A DNA stretch of 23,494 bases from a virus: positions 1 to 23,494 of the IMG/VR virus record IMGVR_UViG_3300017726_000087. The stretch is one strand, 5' to 3'. Shown one piece after another: positions 11,358 through 22,581 of this stretch. The position numbers were made by a program, and so were the translations under genes. Below the pieces are notes generated by a model that searched no databases, had not been told where the DNA came from, and was given only the letters and a program-made list of their open reading frames with translations. Every line of letters starts with the position of its first letter. Positions within the stretch are counted from its first letter, which is position 1.

Positions 11358-11385
11358 ATTATATCAGATTTATTGTGGATTTCTA
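11358..11385 (-). promoter_or_regulatory. Candidate extended -10 promoter for the nozzle gene and downstream genes
   Basis: On the minus strand the 48-base gap after the last oxygenase gene holds TGATATAAT (11366-11358), a perfect extended -10 (TG-n-TATAAT). Sixteen bases upstream is TAGAAA (11385-11380), a 4/6 match to TTGACA. The expected start near 11351 gives a leader of about 17 bases with AGG before the ATG at 11334. It is one of the two longest intergenic gaps in the window, and the element sits exactly at the boundary between the oxygenase array and the structural genes. Chance matches are common in AT-rich DNA, so this is a candidate only. Confidence 0.5.
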
Positions 11386-11976
11386 GAGGTTTAATACCAG
11401 ACCAATTCTATTATCATCTATTTTGTGTGTAGGAACTTCGTGATACAACCAAGATGGCCATAATAAAAGACTTCCTACTACAGGTTTATATGAAACAGTA
11501 CCAAAAGTATTTATATTTTGATAATCCAATACAGGCCAATTAGTATATTCTCTTACATGTATAGGATCGTTAAAAATAATTTGAGCAGAACCTTCTGGTA
11601 CTTTTAAATATAGAATGCCTGATAGCTGATATTTATGTATATGTCTTTCTTGATAAGACCCTTTATTCAATTCTGTGGTAAAAAAATAAGGATCAAATTT
11701 TTTAGCTATTTGACTATAATCAAAACCTAAATCTGTTAAATAAGCTTGTGCCACTTGTTTTAAATATTTTAAAAACTTTTGATATTCAGGTTGTTTAGCT
11801 AAATTATATTTAGTGTCGTATGTAGTTCTACCTTTATAAAATCTTTCTTTATTAATCTTTTCATAGTCTAAATATTTAAGGGACGGCTTTAATAATTTTT
11901 TAGCCCATTCTGGATTGTAGTGTGATAAGATAGGAACAGAGAACCAGCTTTCTATTTTATAATTAGTTATTTTCAT
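11383..11976 (-). CDS. 2OG-Fe(II) oxygenase-like protein 9 of 9 (HxH type, 197 aa)
   Basis: Last gene of the array. The metal motif reads RHIHKYQLSGILYL with H112 and H114. The distal histidine is H179 in LLWPSWLYHEVPTH and the putative 2OG-binding arginine is R190 (11 residues on, in DNRIGLVLNL). After the first motif comes FNDPIHVREY, the 'F-x-DP-R' block of the putative oxygenase family PF13759, and YKPVVGSLLLWPSW forms the strand before the distal histidine. The N-terminus (WFSVPILSHYNPEW) aligns with that of protein 5 (YFQSPICSIEIPEW), so these two look like paralogues. The ATG overlaps the end of gene 8 by 14 bases. The stop TAG overlaps the -35 region of the next candidate promoter. 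A fold-level call is secure; substrate and activity are unknown. Confidence 0.8.
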   Translation of the reverse strand: MKITNYKIESWFSVPILSHYNPEWAKKLLKPSLKYLDYEKINKERFYKGRTTYDTKYNLAKQPEYQKFLKYLKQVAQAYLTDLGFDYSQIAKKFDPYFFTTELNKGSYQERHIHKYQLSGILYLKVPEGSAQIIFNDPIHVREYTNWPVLDYQNINTFGTVSYKPVVGSLLLWPSWLYHEVPTHKIDDNRIGLVLNL

Positions 11977-12496
11977 TAAATATTTCCCAATGTTTTTCTA
12001 TTGCAATTATTTCCATATTTATCGAAAGTCTAAGCTGTTTTGATTTAACATTAACAGGGTTATGCCATAACCAGCATGGAAAAATATATAACTCATTTGT
12101 TTTAGGTTTAATTTTTAATATATCTTTTCTTCGATTTCTAAATTCTATTTCACCACCTTCCATATCTTTTGGTATATCTAAATAATAAACTGAATTAATA
12201 GTTGAAGATTTAATGTGATTATGCCAATTAACAGATGGTTTAAAGTCTTTATTAGAAGCTACAGCCCAACAAAAATCTCTATTCAAATCTTTATTAACTT
12301 TAAACTTTAAATGCTTTTGAGCAGTATTTACAAATGTATTATAAAGTTTTGTAGTAAATTTACTTTTTTCAAGAGCATAATTATTATCCCACTGTGCTCT
12401 TTTAATTTGATCAATAACTTTATTTTTAACTCTTGTATGCTCTCCTTTAGAAAAGTCGTATAAATTATCAATCCTTATAATAGGAAAGTCTTTCAT
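11963..12496 (-). CDS. 2OG-Fe(II) oxygenase-like protein 8 of 9 (HxH type, 177 aa)
   Basis: The core begins at NWHNHIKSSTINSVYYLDIP, with H92 and H94 as proximal ligands. The strand GGEIEFRN follows, then LYIFPCWLWHNPVNV with the distal H145, and R156/S158 in LRLSINMEI. This is the complete H-x-H, H, R-x-S order expected for a double-stranded beta-helix oxygenase of the PF13759 kind, with His where the usual Asp would be. The first 75 residues are variable, charged and helical. The start forms TAATG with the stop of gene 7 at 12496. The Trp-His and VYYL context is closest to proteins 1 and 3 of the array. A C-terminal extension of about 15 residues (AIEKHWEIFNENN) is not seen in those two. 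Confidence 0.8.
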   Translation of the reverse strand: MKDFPIIRIDNLYDFSKGEHTRVKNKVIDQIKRAQWDNNYALEKSKFTTKLYNTFVNTAQKHLKFKVNKDLNRDFCWAVASNKDFKPSVNWHNHIKSSTINSVYYLDIPKDMEGGEIEFRNRRKDILKIKPKTNELYIFPCWLWHNPVNVKSKQLRLSINMEIIAIEKHWEIFNENN

Positions 12497-13176
12497 TATC
12501 TCGGAATCTTTTTTTCTACTCTTTTAAATCTACTTGGTAACCCTAAATGTGGTCGTCTATCAAAAGCGTTTTCTTCTGCACCTTTAGTTGCTTTGTTATT
12601 GTAATGTAAAAATACTTGTGCACAATAATTTCCTGTATAAGGCTCTCTCCAATGTTCTAGTAAATCACCTCTATAAACTAACATGTCACCAGGTTTTAAA
12701 TCTACCTTAACTCCTTTAGATTTAGACGCATCATAATCTCTTGTTGTTGGATTTATTCCACCTTCTTTTTCATTTGGGTTTATATAAATTGGCCAAGGTT
12801 TATCTCCGCCTAAATTTAATGTAGTTGATATTTCACAACTAAATCTATCTTTGTGTCTATGTAATACATCTTTCACTTTATAAACTCTAGTGTAAGAATA
12901 ATTTTCAAATAATTTTAAACCTGTAGCTTTTTCCATTTTTGGTTTTAATGTAGTTAATAATGTTTCCATCATCACATCTCCATAATGAGAATAAGTACCT
13001 GGAACTTGTTTATCTCTCCAAGTGCCCCAGTCATGATTAAATTCTGATATATGTTTAGTTGTAATAAATGCTTGAGTTACTTTTCTTTTAAGCAAGATAT
13101 AGTTTTTTAAAAGCTCAGCGATATCCTTACTTACGGCTCCTTTTATTACAGTAAATTTATCTTTTTTCCAATTCAT
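12496..13176 (-). CDS. 2OG-Fe(II) oxygenase-like protein 7 of 9 (HxD type, no canonical Arg, 226 aa)
   Basis: The proximal motif is HRHKDRFSCEISTTLNLGG, giving H108-x-D110 with a canonical carboxylate. KPGDMLVYRGDLLEHWREPY gives the distal H175. At 10-12 residues past this histidine, where the other proteins have arginine, the sequence is YCAQVFLHYN (C185, A186, Q187), so the usual 2OG-binding Arg is missing. R177, immediately after the distal His, could substitute. I recall the EHWREP...CAQVFLHYN pattern from other marine-phage proteins, so it is probably a subfamily feature and not decay. The N-terminal 95 residues are helical, and the C-terminus is basic (SRFKRVEKKIPR). The ATG lies one base after gene 6's TAA, and the stop overlaps gene 8's ATG (TAATG). 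Confidence 0.75.
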   Translation of the reverse strand: MNWKKDKFTVIKGAVSKDIAELLKNYILLKRKVTQAFITTKHISEFNHDWGTWRDKQVPGTYSHYGDVMMETLLTTLKPKMEKATGLKLFENYSYTRVYKVKDVLHRHKDRFSCEISTTLNLGGDKPWPIYINPNEKEGGINPTTRDYDASKSKGVKVDLKPGDMLVYRGDLLEHWREPYTGNYCAQVFLHYNNKATKGAEENAFDRRPHLGLPSRFKRVEKKIPR

Positions 13177-13177
13177 A

Positions 13178-13672
13178 TTATTGATAGTTAAAATTAATTA
13201 CTATTTTATATTTTTGATCTGTACAAGTTGTAGCTTGATGGGTTTCATTTCCTTCAAAAAATACTATCCTGTTTTCTTTTGCTTGTACCTTTCTATCTTT
13301 AAACAATGTTAAACCATTATTAGTATTAATATATAATATAGCTGCTTTACATTTATACTCTTGATCTGTGTGTTTATCAAACTTATAAACTTTATCTGTA
13401 TTAGAAACTAAATTTGCTTTTATTCTTATAAAATATTTAGGTTTTAATATTTCTATAATAGGTTCTAATAAACTATAAGCATTAGAATTTATTTTATTAT
13501 CTTCAAAAAAAACATGAGTAAGTTGGTAATCACTTTTATGTTTTGTATATTCTTTAGGGTCTTTGGATGTTTTATTATTATTTAAATACCAAGGAAAAAC
13601 ATCAGAAGTTAAAGCTTTTTTTATTTTATTAAAGTCTTCTTTTTTTAAAAAATTATTTTTTACTTTTGACAT
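13178..13672 (-). CDS. 2OG-Fe(II) oxygenase-like protein 6 of 9 (HxD type, Arg replaced by Lys, 164 aa)
   Basis: A short protein whose core reads FDKHTDQEYKCKAAILYINT (H101-x-D103). GLTLFKD and then RIVFFEGNETHQATT follow with the distal H145. The final strand is TDQKYKIVINFNY. The residue that is Arg in related proteins (by recollection, xNRIVxNFNY) is K156 here, which might weaken 2OG binding or change the co-substrate. It is the smallest HxD member and resembles the compact phage oxygenase-like proteins often found in marine T4-like phages. The ATG at 13672 lies within gene 5 (20-base overlap) and is preceded by GAGGAC. The start MSKVKNNFLKKEDFNK leaves only about 75 residues before the core. 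Confidence 0.75.
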   Translation of the reverse strand: MSKVKNNFLKKEDFNKIKKALTSDVFPWYLNNNKTSKDPKEYTKHKSDYQLTHVFFEDNKINSNAYSLLEPIIEILKPKYFIRIKANLVSNTDKVYKFDKHTDQEYKCKAAILYINTNNGLTLFKDRKVQAKENRIVFFEGNETHQATTCTDQKYKIVINFNYQ

Positions 13673-14351
13673 CTTGTCCTCTCAAATGATTGGTTAATAA
13701 TTTTCTAACAGCTTGTAAATTAAAATGCACAAATCTAAAATCATCTACTCCAGCATCTACTGTAAAACCATGTTCTAAATATGATGGAAAAAAAATCATA
13801 GTCCCTGGTTTAGGTTTATATTGAATCAGTGGTGAAGCCATTGAAATGTTAGCCGGATCTTTCAGAGGCAAGTCTGACATGACTTTAGCTAATCTTGGAT
13901 CTTTAAAATAAGGAACAGAGGTTCTGTCACTACATTTTAAAAAATAAAAACCTGAAATATGGTTATCATAATGTATGTGACCTTCATGGTGTCCTCCACC
14001 TTTTTTAGAAAATTCTTGTACCCATAATTCAGTCCACATTAATTCGTACTGAGACATATCATATCCAAAAAAATCCATAACATTCCAACTTGTTGATCCA
14101 ACATATTCTTGAAATTCTTTTAATTCAGGATCGTTAATCATGCTTCCTGAATGGTGTGATAAAGTTATATCCCCAACTTTTTTCTTCCATCTTTTTTCCC
14201 TATCTTTAATCATAGGTTCATTTCTTTTCTTGGCTTCTTTAATATATTTATTACATACTTTATCAACATGGCCTACCCACTCAGGTATTTCAATAGAACA
14301 GATTGGAGATTGAAAATAAATTGATGTAGTTAATTTATCTGTTTTAGGCAT
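13653..14351 (-). CDS. 2OG-Fe(II) oxygenase-like protein 5 of 9 (HxH type, 232 aa)
   Basis: The start used here is the ATG at 14351 (MPKTDKLTTSIYFQ), two bases after gene 4's TAA. A longer reading from 14372 would need a TTG start and a 20-base overlap, and seems unnecessary. The core is HHEGHIHYDNHISGFYFL with H125 and H127. YFKDPRLAK then forms the DPR block of PF13759. KPGTMIFFPSYLEHGF carries the distal H194, and R206 lies in DDFRFVHFNL. A 20-residue insert between DPR and the distal strand (DLPLKDPANISMASPLIQYK) makes it one of the longer members. N-terminal YFQSPICSIEIPEW matches protein 9. The C-terminal tail is basic (RGQDVKSKK). Confidence 0.78.
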   Translation of the reverse strand: MPKTDKLTTSIYFQSPICSIEIPEWVGHVDKVCNKYIKEAKKRNEPMIKDREKRWKKKVGDITLSHHSGSMINDPELKEFQEYVGSTSWNVMDFFGYDMSQYELMWTELWVQEFSKKGGGHHEGHIHYDNHISGFYFLKCSDRTSVPYFKDPRLAKVMSDLPLKDPANISMASPLIQYKPKPGTMIFFPSYLEHGFTVDAGVDDFRFVHFNLQAVRKLLTNHLRGQDVKSKK

Positions 14352-14352
14352 A

Positions 14353-15021
14353 TTATTTAAATGGATACCCAAGTGCCCATAGCACTAATGAATATCTTTT
14401 TCCTGTAGTAACTGGTTTAACTCTATGCCATAGATGAGAAGGAAATACAATAATACTTCCTCTTGCACCAAAATGTCTTTTAGTATTTAAAACTATTTTT
14501 GGATCTGTTTCTGTTCTTGGTTGTATTTCTAACTCCCCACCTTTGTAATCTTTAGGATTAGATAATTGAACAATAGCTGAAATTTTTCTTTGTTTACCAT
14601 GGAAATTAGGATCTGCTGGATTATCATAAGGTGTTGGAAAAGGGTCACAATGCCAATCATAAAACTGGTTACGTTTATATTTAGTAAATTGGCAAGTTTC
14701 AAAATAACTAATTTCAAAATTCCAACCAGCGCTTTGATTTGCTTGATGTATATAAGGAATTATTTGATCATAGATCCATCTATCATTTACCCAAGCAACA
14801 TTAGAATCTCTTTGTTTTTTTAAATCTTTTATTTCTTTTCTTGTTAAGTGTTTTTGAATTTCTGATTCATGTTTTACACCAATTCTTTCTTTAACACTCC
14901 TTGCTGTTTTACCTATGGTTCCTATTTTTTCTCTTTGAGAATTACCATGTTCTATTAATTCATCACAAAACTTGTCTCCAAGTATACCTGTAAAATACCA
15001 ATAAGCGTTTTTTAAAATCAT
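14353..15021 (-). CDS. 2OG-Fe(II) oxygenase, PKHD/prolyl-hydroxylase-like, 4 of 9 (HxD type, 222 aa)
   Basis: This is the most canonical enzyme of the array. QFYDWHCDPFPTP gives H124-x-D126. RKISAIVQLSNPKDYKGGEL is the classic strand of PKHD-type/P4H-like hydroxylases (PF13640). SIIVFPSHLWHRVKPV gives the distal H199, and GKRYSLVLWALGYPF gives R209-x-S211. All four expected 2OG/iron residues are present, in the usual order and spacing. Length and the YFTGILGDKFCDELI N-terminus are normal for this family. Members hydroxylate protein or small-molecule substrates in other organisms; which applies here cannot be read from sequence. The ATG overlaps the TGA of gene 3 in a four-base ATGA junction. 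If only one protein of the array is an active hydroxylase, this is the best candidate. Confidence 0.88.
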   Translation of the reverse strand: MILKNAYWYFTGILGDKFCDELIEHGNSQREKIGTIGKTARSVKERIGVKHESEIQKHLTRKEIKDLKKQRDSNVAWVNDRWIYDQIIPYIHQANQSAGWNFEISYFETCQFTKYKRNQFYDWHCDPFPTPYDNPADPNFHGKQRKISAIVQLSNPKDYKGGELEIQPRTETDPKIVLNTKRHFGARGSIIVFPSHLWHRVKPVTTGKRYSLVLWALGYPFK

Positions 15022-15470
15022 ATTAAATCTATTGCAATTGAATAACGTTTAATTTTTTTAGGTGAATAAGGTTGAGAATGTATTTCATTACCATCAAAAA
15101 CTAATAAAGAATTTTGTGGACATTTTCGTGAAGTAATCTTGTCCCAACTATATCTTTCATCTCTAAACATAGTTCCTAAACTATCAGAATTTTGTAAAAA
15201 GTAAACAGCCGATAATTTACAGGTAGGGTGATTGTGCCAATTAATCTCATCCCCTTCACAATAATTACCCCAAGAATTTTCAATTTGATATTTTTTAAAA
15301 TATTTAGACATAATTAAATTGTAAAAATGTTTAGTTTCGTCAAACGTATGTAGATCCATAAGAGTCTGTAAACCAGGACATCTTGGCCTTAAATCTCTAA
15401 CCTGTGTTTTAACAAACGCCAGTAACTTTTTTCTTTCTTTTTCTGTAAGAATATTTTTATATAACTTCAT
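15018..15470 (-). CDS. 2OG-Fe(II) oxygenase-like protein 3 of 9 (HxH type, 150 aa)
   Basis: The shortest member. The core reads NWHNHPTCKLSAVYFLQNSD with H79 and H81. LGTMFRD follows, then SLLVFDGNEIHSQPYSP with the distal H131, and R142/S144 in IKRYSIAIDLI. The Trp before the first His and the LSAVYFL strand place it near protein 1 (WHTHPRTNLSAVYYL). The N-terminal 60 residues are helical (LTEKERKKLLAFVKTQV). It begins at TAATG with gene 2's stop (15470) and ends in the ATGA overlap with gene 4. At 150 residues it is close to the minimum for this fold, so it probably has no separate substrate-recognition domain. Confidence 0.78.
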   Translation of the reverse strand: MKLYKNILTEKERKKLLAFVKTQVRDLRPRCPGLQTLMDLHTFDETKHFYNLIMSKYFKKYQIENSWGNYCEGDEINWHNHPTCKLSAVYFLQNSDSLGTMFRDERYSWDKITSRKCPQNSLLVFDGNEIHSQPYSPKKIKRYSIAIDLI

Positions 15471-16072
15471 TATGTCTGTAAAAGTACATTACCTGCAATA
15501 GACATTCTGGTTTTGTTGCTGTTATAAAACGGGTATACAATATGCTGTAATTGTGCAGGAAATAATACTATACGCCCCTCATCTTTTTTAGTTAAAGTTA
15601 ATCTATGTGTTAAATTTTTTCCTATAATAGAATTGTAATTATATTCAAATATTGAAGGAACTGGTATCTGCATCCAAATATTATAAGACAACACACCGCC
15701 ATGTTCGTGTAGTGGTAAATATTCATTTTTTTTCTGAAAGTTTACCCATGGTGTTCTAAAAGCCATTGGTACATCTTTATCTAAATATCTTATACCATCT
15801 AAATAACCTGGAAAAGTTTCTCTATATTTTTGAATCATTTTTTTAATAACTTCAATTATCTTTAATGTATTTTCTTCTGTTATAAAATAATGTTCTGATA
15901 CGCCTTTCTCAGTTAAATAAGATATCATTTTTTTCTTATAATCTATGTCTAAAGCAATTCCACGTGGTTTTGGTTTCTTTATAGATAAACATTCTTTTAA
16001 TAAAGAATTATATAATTCTTTTGGTAATCTACTTTCTATAACTCCAAAATTAGGTAGTGGTAAAATTTCCAT
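15470..16072 (-). CDS. 2OG-Fe(II) oxygenase-like protein 2 of 9 (HxH type, 200 aa)
   Basis: The central sequence FRTPWVNFQKKNEYLPLHEH, followed by GGVLSYNIWMQIP, gives H122 and H124 with E123 between them. RIVLFPAQLQHIVYPF gives the distal H167, and R179-x-S181 lies in TRMSIAGNVLL. The 'W-N-QK---Y-PLH-H-G--S---W--IP' block defines a recognisable marine-phage subfamily distinct from the other array members. IFEYNYNSIIGKNLTH sits where other members carry the F-x-DP block. E123 or H124 could supply the second proximal ligand; alignment favours H124. The start forms TAATG with gene 1's stop at 16072. The N-terminus (LPNFGVIESRLPKELYN) resembles a short substrate-lid helix. Confidence 0.78.
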   Translation of the reverse strand: MEILPLPNFGVIESRLPKELYNSLLKECLSIKKPKPRGIALDIDYKKKMISYLTEKGVSEHYFITEENTLKIIEVIKKMIQKYRETFPGYLDGIRYLDKDVPMAFRTPWVNFQKKNEYLPLHEHGGVLSYNIWMQIPVPSIFEYNYNSIIGKNLTHRLTLTKKDEGRIVLFPAQLQHIVYPFYNSNKTRMSIAGNVLLQT

Positions 16073-16557
16073 TAATTATAAAAATCACAGTTAAATGATA
16101 TAACTGTCTTCCTTTCATTGCTTTTGTTTACAGGAGCTCTATGTAACATATATGATGGAAAAATCAATATGTCTCCTTCTTTAGCTTTAATTTTATTATT
16201 TTTAAATTCAGTAATTAATTCTTTTTTAGGTAATTCTAAATAATATACAGCAGATAAATTAGTTCTAGGGTGGGTATGCCAAGCGTGTTTATCATTTTTT
16301 TTATATTGCATAAACCATGCATTATGAATTGTCCAATTTTGACATTTAAATTTTTTAGCTGTTTGTGACATTAAAGAATTTATTTCTTTATAAAAGAAAT
16401 CTAAATAATCTCTTTGAAAATCAGAAGGTAAGTTCCAATCGGATTTAGTTGCCGTTGTGCCTTTATGTGTTTGATAAAAAATATTTGGCATTTTATCAAT
16501 TAAAGATAAAAGTTTATTTTTAATTTTATTATGCTTTCTAAATTGTATTACCCACAT
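16072..16557 (-). CDS. 2OG-Fe(II) oxygenase-like protein 1 of 9 (HxH type, 161 aa)
   Basis: First gene of the array. WHTHPRTNLSAVYYLELP gives H94 and H96. AKEGDILIFPSYMLHRAPVN gives the distal H139, and RKTVISFNCDF contains R149 and S154. The order matches PF13759-type proteins, with the second proximal ligand His in place of Asp. The ATG at 16557 has no purine-rich ribosome binding site: the ten bases before it are AACCCATACC. A strong-looking promoter lies so close that transcription would start about 3-5 bases before the ATG, so this gene may be expressed from a nearly leaderless message. All eight following genes are coupled to it by overlaps or gaps of at most two bases, so its expression probably sets that of the array. 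Confidence 0.8.
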   Translation of the reverse strand: MWVIQFRKHNKIKNKLLSLIDKMPNIFYQTHKGTTATKSDWNLPSDFQRDYLDFFYKEINSLMSQTAKKFKCQNWTIHNAWFMQYKKNDKHAWHTHPRTNLSAVYYLELPKKELITEFKNNKIKAKEGDILIFPSYMLHRAPVNKSNERKTVISFNCDFYN

Positions 16558-16567
16558 GGTATGGGTT

Positions 16568-16596
16568 TTTATATACTTTAATTAATTAATAGTCAA
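16568..16596 (-). promoter_or_regulatory. Candidate sigma70-type promoter driving the oxygenase array
   Basis: On the minus strand TTGACT (16596-16591, 5/6 match to the -35) and TATAAA (16573-16568, 5/6 match to the -10) are separated by exactly 17 bases. The -35 lies in the last codons of the glycine-rich gene, and the -10 lies in the 24-base gap before the first oxygenase gene. The predicted start is near 16562-16560, that is 3-5 bases before the ATG. The absence of a ribosome binding site agrees with this. Position, spacing and both hexamers agree, which makes it the best promoter candidate in the window, though it is untested. Confidence 0.6.
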
Positions 16597-18498
16597 TGTT
16601 CCCGAAACAACAAATTTAGCAACGGTATGTCCACCAACACAAGATATAGTATTACATCCTGGTGAAGCTGACATAGGGTGTCCTGCTGGTGATCTAACAA
16701 CAACGATACCTGAACCACCTTTTGATCCATAGTGTGATTTTCCACATGGAGCTAAATAAGTAGGAGCACCAAAGTTAGTAGGTCCTCCAGTACCTCCACC
16801 GCCGCCACCGCCGGTATTTGCAACACCTGGTTCTGATAAAGAAGCAGCGTTTCTTGAAGCAGCAGTTCCACCGCCACCTGATCCACCGGTTCCACCGGCT
16901 AGTCCGCCAACTCCTCGGTCAGTTCCGGATCCTCCACCTCCAGCATAAGCTGAACATGCAACACCTGTAATTAAGTTCGCAGCTCCCGCTCCTCCAGGTA
17001 CTCCTGGGTCTGAACCTGATCCTGGACTTCCAGCTGCAGTAGCACCTCCGCCACCACCAGAAGCTTTGTTATCAGGGTTTCCTCCAGATCCACCATCATT
17101 TCCTTCAGGTGGAGAGAATCCTCCAATGTTTCCAGAACCTCCTGGTCTTTTACCACCAATAAGAGAAGCATAACCTCCAGAACCTGAACCTCCAGGTCCA
17201 CCTCTATAACCATTGTTAGCATTCCATGGGCTTCCGCAAGATGCGTTTAAAGGTACAGCACCTCCAGATGATTGAATAAGAGAACCGAAACTTGATGGGC
17301 TACCATAACCTGGACCATCTAAAGATGGGGGTGATGTGTCAATAGGATAAGCAGTTCCGGCAGCACTTGCTCCGCCTGCTCCAATTGTAATTGTATAAGC
17401 TGAAGAAGAACATGCAACGACTGCACATCCTTGTAAAGGTGAAGGTCCGTAACCAGAAGCTCTATAACCTCCAGCTCCACCTCCGGCAAATAATTGACCT
17501 GCTCCGCCTCCAGCGACTACTAAATAATTTAATGTAACTGATTCAATAACTGTTCCATCAGGCCATGCGCCATCAGATTGTGCAGTTCCAGCTTGGACCA
17601 TTGGCCAAACTCCTCTTGCATTGTTTAATTCTTTTGTAATGACTACACCTTTTCCGCCGGCACCGCCGCCACTTGGCGCAGGATCATACTCGGCGCCTCC
17701 GCCGCCACCACCAGTGTTTTCAACTCCAGCTCCGCCTGATCCAGGTCCTTTTCCAGCACCACCGCCACCTGGGCCTGCAGCACCACCTGTTCCACCGCCA
17801 ACAGCAGGTACGTTTGCACCGCCACCGCCGCCACCAGCAATTACTCCACATACTCCAACACCAGTACCAAATATTGCTGAAATATTTGTTCCAGCTCCAC
17901 CGGCTCCACCGTCTCCGCCACCTCCGGATTGAGTACCATTTGCTCCGACAGCACTAGATCCTCCACCGCCACCAGCAGCTTGAAAATAAGTTGAAGGTGT
18001 ATTACCACCACTAAAACCTTGAGCGGGACTTGTTGGAGGTGTGTTACCAGCACCTCCGCTGTCTGCGTTAGTTCCTTTTCCTGGATTAGGTCCGCAGGCT
18101 CCTCCGCCTCCGCCTGATCCACCGGCTCCACCGACTCCGCATCTAGCTCCGCCATCTCCACCGCCATCAGCAGTGTATGTTACACCACCGATTACAATAC
18201 TTGAATCAACTCCAACAGCTCCAGCAGCTCCGCCGCCACCAACTACTGCTGGTACGTTTCCACATATCGATAAATTTTGAATTGTTCTTAATCCACCGGC
18301 TCCACCGCCGCCACTTTCACCGCCACCGCCACCGGCGACAACAGCAATGTCAACTAATTTTGTTCCAGATCCAATAGTAACGGTTCCAGTTGCAGCTGTG
18401 CTTGTAATTTTATTTTTACCAAAAGAAGCACAATTGGCTACACCAATCATTCCTCCTTCAGCTGTACTAATTTTTGTGAGTTTGTTTATTCCAGCCAT
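16582..18498 (-). CDS. Glycine-rich tail fibre / adhesin-like protein (638 aa)
   Basis: After a 45-residue leader (MAGINKLTKISTAEGGMIGV) the protein consists of two long glycine-rich modules. Module 1 spans about residues 47-290, opening IAVVAGGGGGESGGGGAGGL and closing GGKGVVITKE. Module 2 spans about 320-638, opening YLVVAGGGAGQLFAGGGAGG and closing SGIVVVRSPAG and TVAKFVVSGTLTIN. This is the layout of phage glycine-rich domains that end fibres; polyglycine runs can pack as polyglycine-II helices in fibre-tip adhesins such as that of Salmonella phage S16. Its place at the end of the fibre genes supports receptor contact, though that is inferred. Several Cys residues and PG/GP steps lie in the loops. 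A GGGGGA ribosome binding site precedes the start at 18498. The GC-rich glycine codons contrast sharply with the AT-rich array that follows. Confidence 0.7.
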   Translation of the reverse strand: MAGINKLTKISTAEGGMIGVANCASFGKNKITSTAATGTVTIGSGTKLVDIAVVAGGGGGESGGGGAGGLRTIQNLSICGNVPAVVGGGGAAGAVGVDSSIVIGGVTYTADGGGDGGARCGVGGAGGSGGGGGACGPNPGKGTNADSGGAGNTPPTSPAQGFSGGNTPSTYFQAAGGGGGSSAVGANGTQSGGGGDGGAGGAGTNISAIFGTGVGVCGVIAGGGGGGANVPAVGGGTGGAAGPGGGGAGKGPGSGGAGVENTGGGGGGAEYDPAPSGGGAGGKGVVITKELNNARGVWPMVQAGTAQSDGAWPDGTVIESVTLNYLVVAGGGAGQLFAGGGAGGYRASGYGPSPLQGCAVVACSSSAYTITIGAGGASAAGTAYPIDTSPPSLDGPGYGSPSSFGSLIQSSGGAVPLNASCGSPWNANNGYRGGPGGSGSGGYASLIGGKRPGGSGNIGGFSPPEGNDGGSGGNPDNKASGGGGGATAAGSPGSGSDPGVPGGAGAANLITGVACSAYAGGGGSGTDRGVGGLAGGTGGSGGGGTAASRNAASLSEPGVANTGGGGGGGTGGPTNFGAPTYLAPCGKSHYGSKGGSGIVVVRSPAGHPMSASPGCNTISCVGGHTVAKFVVSGTLTIN

Positions 18499-20220: not shown

Positions 20221-21345
20221 TTAAGCCACGTTTACGTCTGTATAAGATGTATTTCCTGTTATGTCAATATCTTTATATCCTAACGGAGATACATTTCCAA
20301 CTGCTGTCGTAGCTTCTACACCAGTTAGTCCTACAACATCTGCAGGAACTATTGTTCCAACAGCAGAAGTTGCTGATTGGCCCGTTAATTCATAGGCCAT
20401 TTCTATTGTTAAAGATCCTACAGCAGAAGTTGCTCCAACACCAGTAATATTTATTAAATCTATTGCATCAATAGTAATTGATCCAACAGCGGTAGTTGCG
20501 CCTACACCTGTTATTCCTAAAGAGAAACTATCTGGAGTTATTGCACCAACTGCAGAAGTTGCAACTTGACCAGTTAATCCAACAATCTCTCCATCTATTG
20601 GAGAAGGAGTTCCAACTGCAGAAGTTGCAGCTTGTCCAGTTAATGAAACTATTGGTGATAAAATAATTGTTGGTGCACCAACATTAGATGTTAACCCTTG
20701 ACCAGTTAATCCAACTACGTCTGCAGGAGTTATTGCTCCTACACTAGAAGTCATTGCACTAGGAGCAGTTAAATTAAATACTGCTGATTCAACAGTACCC
20801 CAACCATTTTCACCCCAGTCTAGTGTACCCCAACCAGGTCTTTGTTCTACAGTTATATCTCCAAGAGAAACAGTAGCTCCTTGACCTTCTAGTAATACGC
20901 TACCAACAATGCCCCAACCTCCGTCATTCCAAGTGTTTCTACCCCAACCATTTTGCACAACGTTAGAGTCACCCCAATCCATTTGTCCATAGTGTGATCT
21001 ACCCCAACCATCTGTATTTGCTTGACCACCCATACCGCCATGGTTTGTACAATAATAATATAATGTTGAAGGTGCACCATTTTGAACTGAAATTTCTGTG
21101 TAAGCTCCAGATGATCCTGGAGTTCCGTTTGTTGTTACACCTATAGTATATTCGCTACCACCGGAGTGTGTACCATCATCGGTTGTTGAAAATCTTAATG
21201 GGTGAGTTGCATTTGAACTATCTGATTGGTCAAACTTATAAGTAAGACCCGCACCTATCATTACGGTGGCTTGTTGAACTCCGTCTATAAAATATTTATT
21301 ACCGCCAGCAGAGGCGACTGTGACAACGAAAGTTTTGTCTGCCAT
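20221..21345 (-). CDS. Cupredoxin-like head with WG-rich linker and LTGQxATSAVG repeats (374 aa), virion protein
   Basis: Residues 1-107 look like a cupredoxin fold: MADKTFVVTVASAGGNKYFI, YKFDQSDSSNATHPL with H48, then STLYYYCTNHGGMGG with C99, H102 and M105. A His, then a C-x2-H-x2-M cluster, is the ligand order of type-1 copper sites, though the H-to-M spacing is shorter than in plastocyanin (C-x2-H-x4-M). Residues 113-183 contain six or more GWG/DWG motifs. Residues 191-356 hold about eight repeats of 20-22 residues with consensus (L/I)TGxxATSAVGxIT. Proteins of this layout recur among structural genes of marine phages, so I infer a fibre or tail appendage. The ribosome binding site lies in a perfect hairpin with the stop codon of the upstream gene. 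Copper binding is untested. Confidence 0.65.
   Translation of the reverse strand: MADKTFVVTVASAGGNKYFIDGVQQATVMIGAGLTYKFDQSDSSNATHPLRFSTTDDGTHSGGSEYTIGVTTNGTPGSSGAYTEISVQNGAPSTLYYYCTNHGGMGGQANTDGWGRSHYGQMDWGDSNVVQNGWGRNTWNDGGWGIVGSVLLEGQGATVSLGDITVEQRPGWGTLDWGENGWGTVESAVFNLTAPSAMTSSVGAITPADVVGLTGQGLTSNVGAPTIILSPIVSLTGQAATSAVGTPSPIDGEIVGLTGQVATSAVGAITPDSFSLGITGVGATTAVGSITIDAIDLINITGVGATSAVGSLTIEMAYELTGQSATSAVGTIVPADVVGLTGVEATTAVGNVSPLGYKDIDITGNTSYTDVNVA
20278..20775 (-). repeat. In-gene tandem repeat, about eight units of 60-66 bases
   Basis: Within the 374-aa gene, units starting at residues 192, 213, 235, 257, 278, 300, 320 and 340 share (L/I)TGxxATSAVGxIT. Spacing is 20-22 residues. The DNA is visibly repetitive too (repeated GTTGGAAC...GCAGAAGTTGC on the plus strand). 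A degenerate unit lies near residue 152. Unit number may vary between relatives. Confidence 0.8.
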
Positions 21346-21813: not shown

Positions 21814-22581
21814 TTATGGAGACGGGGACTTAACTGGTATTCTAACTGTTCCGTCAGTATAATCGTCTCGTCTTCGTCTTCCAAGCTGCATTCCTGCAAA
21901 CTGTTGTATAGCATTTTTATATTTATTTTCATATAATGTCAACATATCTATCGGACCTTTTAAGAACCCATAGGCTTCAACCAAGCAAGCATATAGAAGT
22001 CCGTTTGGAAAGTATTTACTTAGGTATGTTGAAGTCGTTGAACTAGATAATCCTAATGGAATCATATTATAATATATTCTAAACATATAACCGGCATCAG
22101 GTGTCGGGGCTATGTATATACCTCCAGATGTTGTGCTAGAATCTCCTGTAGCACCTCCAAACATCGCATAATATTTGGGAAATCCTGTTACAGAATTAGT
22201 GGTGTCTGTTGGTTTTTGTATAGTTCCAGAAGGACCAAATTTTCTATCTACATACTCTGATAAATACGTTTGATCTTTTTTCTCTAACCAAGTTCCATTG
22301 CCTTCTGTATTTGCTGTAGAATCAAATACTTCTATCCCTCTAATAAACAAAGCTCCTGTTGACCCTTTGGTTCCTTTACCAGGGACATTTAAAGTATTAT
22401 CATTGGCAGCTAAAGTTCCTTCTGAAACATATCTAGATGAATCCATAGGAAGCTCTTGATATATTCTAAACTCAGCATCTTCAATAAATCTATTTATAAC
22501 AGCAGTAGTAAATACATCAGAGCTTACCTCTGTGTAATTTCTAATATCATCTGTTAAACTTGAGTATGTTGTTCCAGCCAT
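21814..22581 (-). CDS. Head-tail connector / adaptor protein, SU10-adaptor-like (255 aa)
   Basis: The N-terminus MAGTTYSSLTDDIRNYTEVS, then SDVFTTAVINRFIEDAEFRI and YQELPMDSSRYVSEGTLAAN, is typical of the small connector proteins that bind below the portal of podoviruses (the SU10-like adaptor family): an N-terminal helix pair, then IxxFIxDAExRIxxELP, then a beta part. The middle gives IRGIEVFDSTANTEGNGTWL, EKKDQTYLSEYVDRK and the strand YIAPTPDAGYMFRIYYNMIP. The C-terminal helical part (FPNGLLYACLVEAYGFLKGP, LYENKYKNAIQQFAGMQLGR) is also characteristic. This protein links head and short tail, so it supports podovirus morphology. The ribosome binding site is weak (ATAGAGC), suggesting dependence on translation of the upstream gene, whose stop is two bases away. 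Confidence 0.7.
   Translation of the reverse strand: MAGTTYSSLTDDIRNYTEVSSDVFTTAVINRFIEDAEFRIYQELPMDSSRYVSEGTLAANDNTLNVPGKGTKGSTGALFIRGIEVFDSTANTEGNGTWLEKKDQTYLSEYVDRKFGPSGTIQKPTDTTNSVTGFPKYYAMFGGATGDSSTTSGGIYIAPTPDAGYMFRIYYNMIPLGLSSSTTSTYLSKYFPNGLLYACLVEAYGFLKGPIDMLTLYENKYKNAIQQFAGMQLGRRRRDDYTDGTVRIPVKSPSP

Follow-up and report, generated by a model that had tools for sequence, protein, structure and literature searches.

The feature at positions 20221–21345 of the window, i.e., of the whole 23,494-nucleotide stretch of viral DNA analyzed here, is a single open reading frame (ORF) on the minus strand with its ATG at 21343–21345 and its stop codon at 20221–20223. Read on the plus strand, the same segment is riddled with stop codons. 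The ORF encodes a putative appendage protein of 374 amino acids, which starts with a predicted cupredoxin domain of about 110 residues (residues 3–110, 21016–21339, minus strand) as delimited by an AlphaFold2 model, fold matches and relatives. A Trp/Gly-rich linker with WGR and DWGD motifs follows (residues 111–187, 20785–21015, minus strand); it coincides with DNA repeats (D3). The remaining residues 188–374 (20224–20784, minus strand) form a repeat region of LTG..AT..VG units, each of about 20–22 residues and encoded by direct DNA repeats whose copies are mostly 60–66 nucleotides apart. Neither linker nor repeat region yielded a confident model, i.e., the prediction of the full-length protein from 17 sequences reached a pLDDT of 39.9 and was uninformative outside the N-terminal domain. 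The layout of domain, linker and repeats is common to relatives of 374–400 amino acids. By eye, no signal peptide was apparent in the window protein.

The initial annotation had pointed out H48, C99, H102 and M105, in the order of cupredoxin ligands and next to a tyrosine-rich strand. We found all four residues at these positions, with LYYY immediately preceding C99. On the minus strand they are encoded at 21202–21204 (H48, the candidate first ligand, which aligns with the His of the plastocyanin family), 21049–21051 (C99, the candidate thiolate ligand), 21040–21042 (H102, the candidate second His ligand) and 21031–21033 (M105, the candidate axial ligand). C99 is the sole Cys of the 374-residue protein, and an intramolecular disulphide is thus impossible.

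AlphaFold2 modeled the N-terminal domain from a 50-sequence alignment with high confidence (pLDDT 94.8, pTM 0.88). In this model, DSSP assigned strands to residues 4–12, 16–20, 35–39, 50–53, 70–73, 82–86, 94–99 and 106–110. H48 lies directly ahead of strand 50–53, C99 ends the penultimate strand 94–99, and the loop between this and the final strand holds H102 and M105; both strand order and ligand placement, from which the convergence of the four residues was judged, are of the cupredoxin type. A Foldseek search of the PDB gave two matches below an E value of 0.001, 2dv6 (2.4e-4) and a rusticyanin (7.6e-4). The best 999 Foldseek chains were then compared with VIA-align, where 2dv6, matching with the first part of a three-domain copper nitrite reductase, again came out on top (Z 9.5, rmsd 2.8, 100 aligned residues), and laccases (Z 8.6), rusticyanin (8.4), a Nitrosopumilus purple cupredoxin (7.9) and plastocyanin (7.3) were among the others. 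Z was at least 8 in 17 of the 999 chains; since a Z near 8 is weak by itself according to the tool's own warning, the weight of the comparison rests on the uniformity of the match lists. All 50 best rows listed by Foldseek and all 50 best rows listed by VIA-align were proteins that we take to be of cupredoxin fold from their titles and from general knowledge of the families, and some of the Foldseek chains were engineered with an amicyanin loop. The phage protein differs from the best structural matches, i.e., nitrite reductase, laccases and rusticyanin, in that a second copper centre is not apparent and one domain is combined with linker and repeats. We conclude with near certainty that the N-terminal domain has the cupredoxin fold, a Greek-key β-sandwich.

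Sequence comparisons with the window protein itself gave no match in Pfam, including PF00127 (Copper-bind) and PF25489, and none in NCBIfam, including the amicyanin family TIGR02657. In the PDB, the window sequence alone found mostly antibody chains with a best E value of 0.12. The profile A3 of 23 diverse relatives placed five plastocyanin sequences on top with weak E values of 0.011–0.018, and below these the list mixed antibodies with copper proteins. In the plastocyanin match, His, Cys and His of plastocyanin fell on H48, C99 and H102. A profile-profile comparison with five host cupredoxins gave 53% probability and an E value of 1.3e-4 and was in register. PF25489, the At5g54830-like domain, matched weakly in five of the 23 members of the profile (best E 0.033), and where scores were shown, those of the relatives did not exceed 14.6 bits compared with a curated cut-off of 27 bits.

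A firm link to a known cupredoxin family was provided by a bridge protein. A stretch from a marine Bacteroidetes single-cell genome (L183) was matched by the phage-domain profile with an E value of 6.7e-11, and this same stretch passed the curated cut-off of PF00127 (32.4 vs 21.2 bits). Used alone against the PDB, it found 69 chains at E values up to 1, and the best 60 listed were all cupredoxins. When 12 sequences were aligned jointly, five columns were invariant, three of them being those of the Cys and both His ligands. Homology of the phage domain to the plastocyanin/azurin family PF00127 is therefore supported via this relative at sequence level. The cupredoxin-like domain that had been suggested from the window sequence is thus borne out by a confident model, by two fold comparisons and by the bridge protein. 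One might otherwise read the domain as an immunoglobulin-like sandwich in which four residues line up by chance, as the antibody chains of the single-sequence search and a BFVD label of one relative as an immunoglobulin-domain protein would suggest. Neither PDB fold list had an immunoglobulin protein among its best 50 rows, and both the conservation of the site described below and the bridge to PF00127 speak against this reading, which we consider next to impossible; fold lists and conservation together ruled out a chance motif or an immunoglobulin domain.

To describe conservation, we extracted 191 domain copies over 176 loci, many of them near-identical and with copies lacking the site included. 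Two partial rows (L100, L164) do not contain the columns of C99, H102 and M105, hence 189 copies have all four columns. H48 and M105, for which conservation across phage homologues had been set in advance as the test, were far from poorly conserved, with 188 of 191 and 187 of 189 copies, respectively; C99 and H102 were each present in 185 of 189. The four ligands were found together in 185 of the 189 copies, three copies had one of them, one copy had none, and no copy had two or three. A change of the axial Met to Gln, Glu or Leu did not occur in any of the 189 copies. The intact domains had exactly one Cys each, the ligand, in 185 of 185 cases, which ruled out a disulphide inside the domain. 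Two of the scans had a conserved-motif stretch among their seeds. The INPHARED records were found by whole-domain similarity instead, and in these the site was present in 26 of 29 copies (25 of 28 distinct ones), each with one Cys.

We further assessed invariance in curated alignments. Alignment A1 combined the window sequence, which replaced L001, with 26 of the 33 remaining non-redundant rows. The 50-sequence alignment A2 was made from 64 representatives and consisted of the window sequence and 49 of the 50 non-INPHARED rows; here, H48, C99, H102, M105 and G106 were the only invariant columns. That four residues named beforehand all fall within five invariant of about 105 columns has a chance of about 1e-6 if columns are treated as equal, a figure that ignores the general tendency of Cys, His and Met to be conserved and leaves out the site-less copy L149:9823-10146, which had been dropped from A2. 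A3 was a hand-picked set of 23 with 11 of 14 INPHARED rows, the site-less L170:4550, L171:5538 and L174:3067 having been dropped, and none of its other members lacked the site. The numbers of invariant columns in A2 and A3 are thus conditional on the dropped site-less copies; the counts over all copies, at the identity limits and in INPHARED include these. When redundancy was limited to 70% identity (57 copies), the four ligands were among the six best conserved columns. At a 50% limit (21 copies), Met was kept in 19, the first His in 18, and Cys and the second His in 17 each, on a par with several fold positions.

In the four copies without the site, 62 of 87 other well-conserved positions were still matched, and we hence conclude that the domain can work without the site. 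Two of these copies occupy equivalent positions in baseplate proteins of related cyanophage origin, so that at most three independent losses are counted. The cyanophage baseplate wedge proteins at L170:2849-7180 and L171:3837-8978 contain one intact and one site-less copy per chain. In cyanophage PSS2, gp080 (L174:3070-3408) is a stand-alone domain of 112 amino acids without metal site (DATM) and is annotated as baseplate wedge subunit. Five further loci (L042, L043, L045, L092, L093) encode two tandem domain copies per protein with the full site in both.

Overall, the four residues appear to be kept or lost as a unit, as would suit a metal site; packing residues or a disulphide would account for this poorly. 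This all-or-none pattern and the lone cysteine support the plausible type-1 copper site of the initial annotation, and we regard an intact metal site in the domain as highly probable. Alternatively, the site might be empty in nature and the four residues kept for packing or inter-chain contact. Such a reading would agree with the existence of site-less copies and with assembly in a compartment low in copper. It is very unlikely given the all-or-none loss and a Cys that has no partner in the domain.

In the 185 intact copies, the ligand loop has the spacing C-x2-H-x2-M in 152 cases, the window protein included, and C-x2-H-x3-M in 33. In 179 of 191 copies, the residue directly after the first His is Pro. 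Laccase T1 sites likewise have a His followed by Pro. The loop is indeed two residues shorter than in plastocyanin, as had been noted at the outset. The doubt about copper that had been derived from this length is unnecessary, because the spacing equals that of amicyanin, with the ligands His53, Cys92, His95 and Met98 as given in an excerpt of PMC12723479; a loop shorter than that of plastocyanin is hence no argument against copper. Moreover, amicyanin loops grafted on other cupredoxin scaffolds gave type-1-like copper sites, as described in an excerpt of PMC7480511. Amicyanin thus shares with the phage domain the ligand set, its order and the C-x2-H-x2-M spacing, and was found among the Foldseek matches together with chimeras that carry its loop. 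In contrast to the phage domain with its predominant Pro, amicyanin has Asn54 after the first His according to the same excerpt (PMC12723479). The two further differ in that identity in the Foldseek rows is about 17%, that TIGR02657 fails to recognize the window protein, and that the phage domain belongs to a tail-region protein in which no signal peptide is apparent.

Beyond the window protein, the domain was widespread among the phage records searched. With the window domain as query, tblastn found 233 of 50,697 phage records at an E value of 1e-5. By name, 221 of these were Synechococcus, Prochlorococcus or cyanophage records, four Methylophilales, three Pelagibacter and five others. When matches up to an E value of 10 were considered, the sole clearly different group was Gordonia with seven records, one of which was displayed at E 6; these matches are probably due to chance. 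A search with the copy from cyanophage gp9 found 326 of the 50,697 records, and 49 of the best 60 listed were annotated as baseplate wedge tail fiber connector. The domain forms the end of gp9, the annotated baseplate-tail fibre connector, in T4-like cyanophages; Syn30 and S-RIM2 are examples of laboratory cyanophages with this gp9 domain. PHROG matches of the domain were mostly to tail fibre, baseplate and virion families, and the tail fibre and baseplate families PHROG 30742, 693, 677 and 708 contain it, as does gp9. None of the annotations of these families and of gp9 mentioned cupredoxin or copper among the rows listed. In BFVD, 63 models matched at E values up to 0.001, and the named ones among the best 50 listed were mostly proteins of cyanophages or uncultured phages.

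PHROG matches of the domain and of neighbouring proteins, together with a structural gene neighbourhood, place the protein in the tail or baseplate region. The domain protein of phage S-TIM5 is called a virion structural protein in its record. In S-CREM2, a phage with a virion proteome, no domain copy was found within 42100–91900. The appendage-like character assigned to the protein from the start is supported by the tail fibre, baseplate and gp9 proteins that are homologous to it, and from this homology the window protein is expected to be part of the virion. By annotation, the domain is a recurring module on tail fibres, baseplate wedges and gp9 connectors, mostly of cyanophages, and the hundreds of phages that have it are probably mostly marine.

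Bacterial and archaeal genome assemblies contained the domain at 53 loci. Many of these lie on short contigs and may be viral. A Flavobacteriaceae assembly encodes a protein of more than 2,000 amino acids (L149:5848-12303) that begins with a hydrophobic stretch and contains the domain twice, once intact and once without the site, and cells may hence use the domain, too. Furthermore, a 133-amino-acid 'beta-sandwich protein' of Pithovirus LCPAC304 (BFVD A0A481Z7Q7, rank 48) matched the model with an E value of 1.1e-5 at 19% identity; judging from this match, giant viruses may have the fold as well.

The known roles of cupredoxins are those of free electron carriers and of oxidase domains. For the phage protein, the explanation that we are inclined to prefer as a whole is a type-1-like copper site that mainly stabilizes a module of the adsorption apparatus. 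The N-terminal cupredoxin would hold this site with H48, C99, H102 and axial M105 on a short amicyanin-type loop, and marine phages would use the domain as a mobile building block of tail fibres, baseplate wedge and gp9 connector. Copper is probably the natural metal. As no signal peptide is apparent by eye, it would be acquired either inside the host, from the cytoplasm as Cu(I), or after lysis from the seawater. The metal might then lock the β-sandwich and the exposed end loop in a stable shape for contact with other subunits or a receptor; that its role is mainly structural we propose tentatively.

Cellular cupredoxins are usually exported, and the cytoplasm, in which phage proteins fold, contains little free copper. 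Both points, along with the apparent lack of a signal peptide, would suit a genuine and purely structural site whose native metal is not copper, e.g., Zn(II), and the observed conservation is compatible with any metal. We regard this as unlikely, since ligands of this kind, with Met in the axial position, are those of type-1 copper and this Met never changed to Gln, Glu or Leu in the 189 copies. At the other end, a working copper site may be envisaged, where redox state or loading switches fibre or baseplate, or where the exposed loop contacts a partner on the host surface. The position of the domain at the end of the gp9 connector and the retention of the full type-1 set, rather than of a merely structural subset, would agree with such a switch. 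It is decidedly unlikely in view of site-less copies that persist in baseplate proteins. In its most far-reaching form, virions of many marine phages would be cuproprotein particles in which copper loading or redox gates fibre-baseplate signalling or host contact; this would link ocean copper chemistry to phage adsorption, and we consider it very improbable.

In a search of open-access literature, with few subscription papers and no bioRxiv preprints, we found no report of a phage-tail cupredoxin, and this absence is weak evidence. Of the papers that came up, one was on Borgs, and PMC8115048 deals with a viral NirK. The cupredoxin fold with a complete site occurs here as a recurring phage-tail module, among others in the gp9 connector of numerous T4-like cyanophages, and hundreds of proteins now labelled hypothetical or tail fiber gain a domain name. 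Should the domain bind metal, phage tails would be added to the few virion parts that depend on metals, among which, to our knowledge, copper with a type-1 ligand set is not known, and infectivity could depend on copper.

The closest named records, as found with two window proteins, were the Pelagibacter phages HTVC027P and HTVC023P and phage 023Pt_psg01. The gene order of HTVC027P resembles that of the window as judged by annotation and two protein matches, and its segment 32304–44942 contained no domain copy. In 023Pt_psg01, the domain starts a protein of 365 amino acids that lies upstream of a homologue of the window ORF 21814–22581, with one gene between them. Elsewhere in the window, nine consecutive ORFs on the minus strand (11383–16557), placed in a phage structural module, overlap at seven of their eight junctions. 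Eight of the nine match Pfam families of 2OG-Fe(II) oxygenases at E values up to 0.01, six of them over the curated cut-off. HTVC027P has three ORFs at the equivalent place, one of which is annotated as 2OG-Fe(II) oxygenase. Adjoining the oxygenase array on the minus strand, 16582–18498 encodes a very Gly-rich protein of 638 amino acids that belongs to phrog_2295, where no function is assigned; from its sequence and position it is a possible substrate of the adjoining oxygenases.
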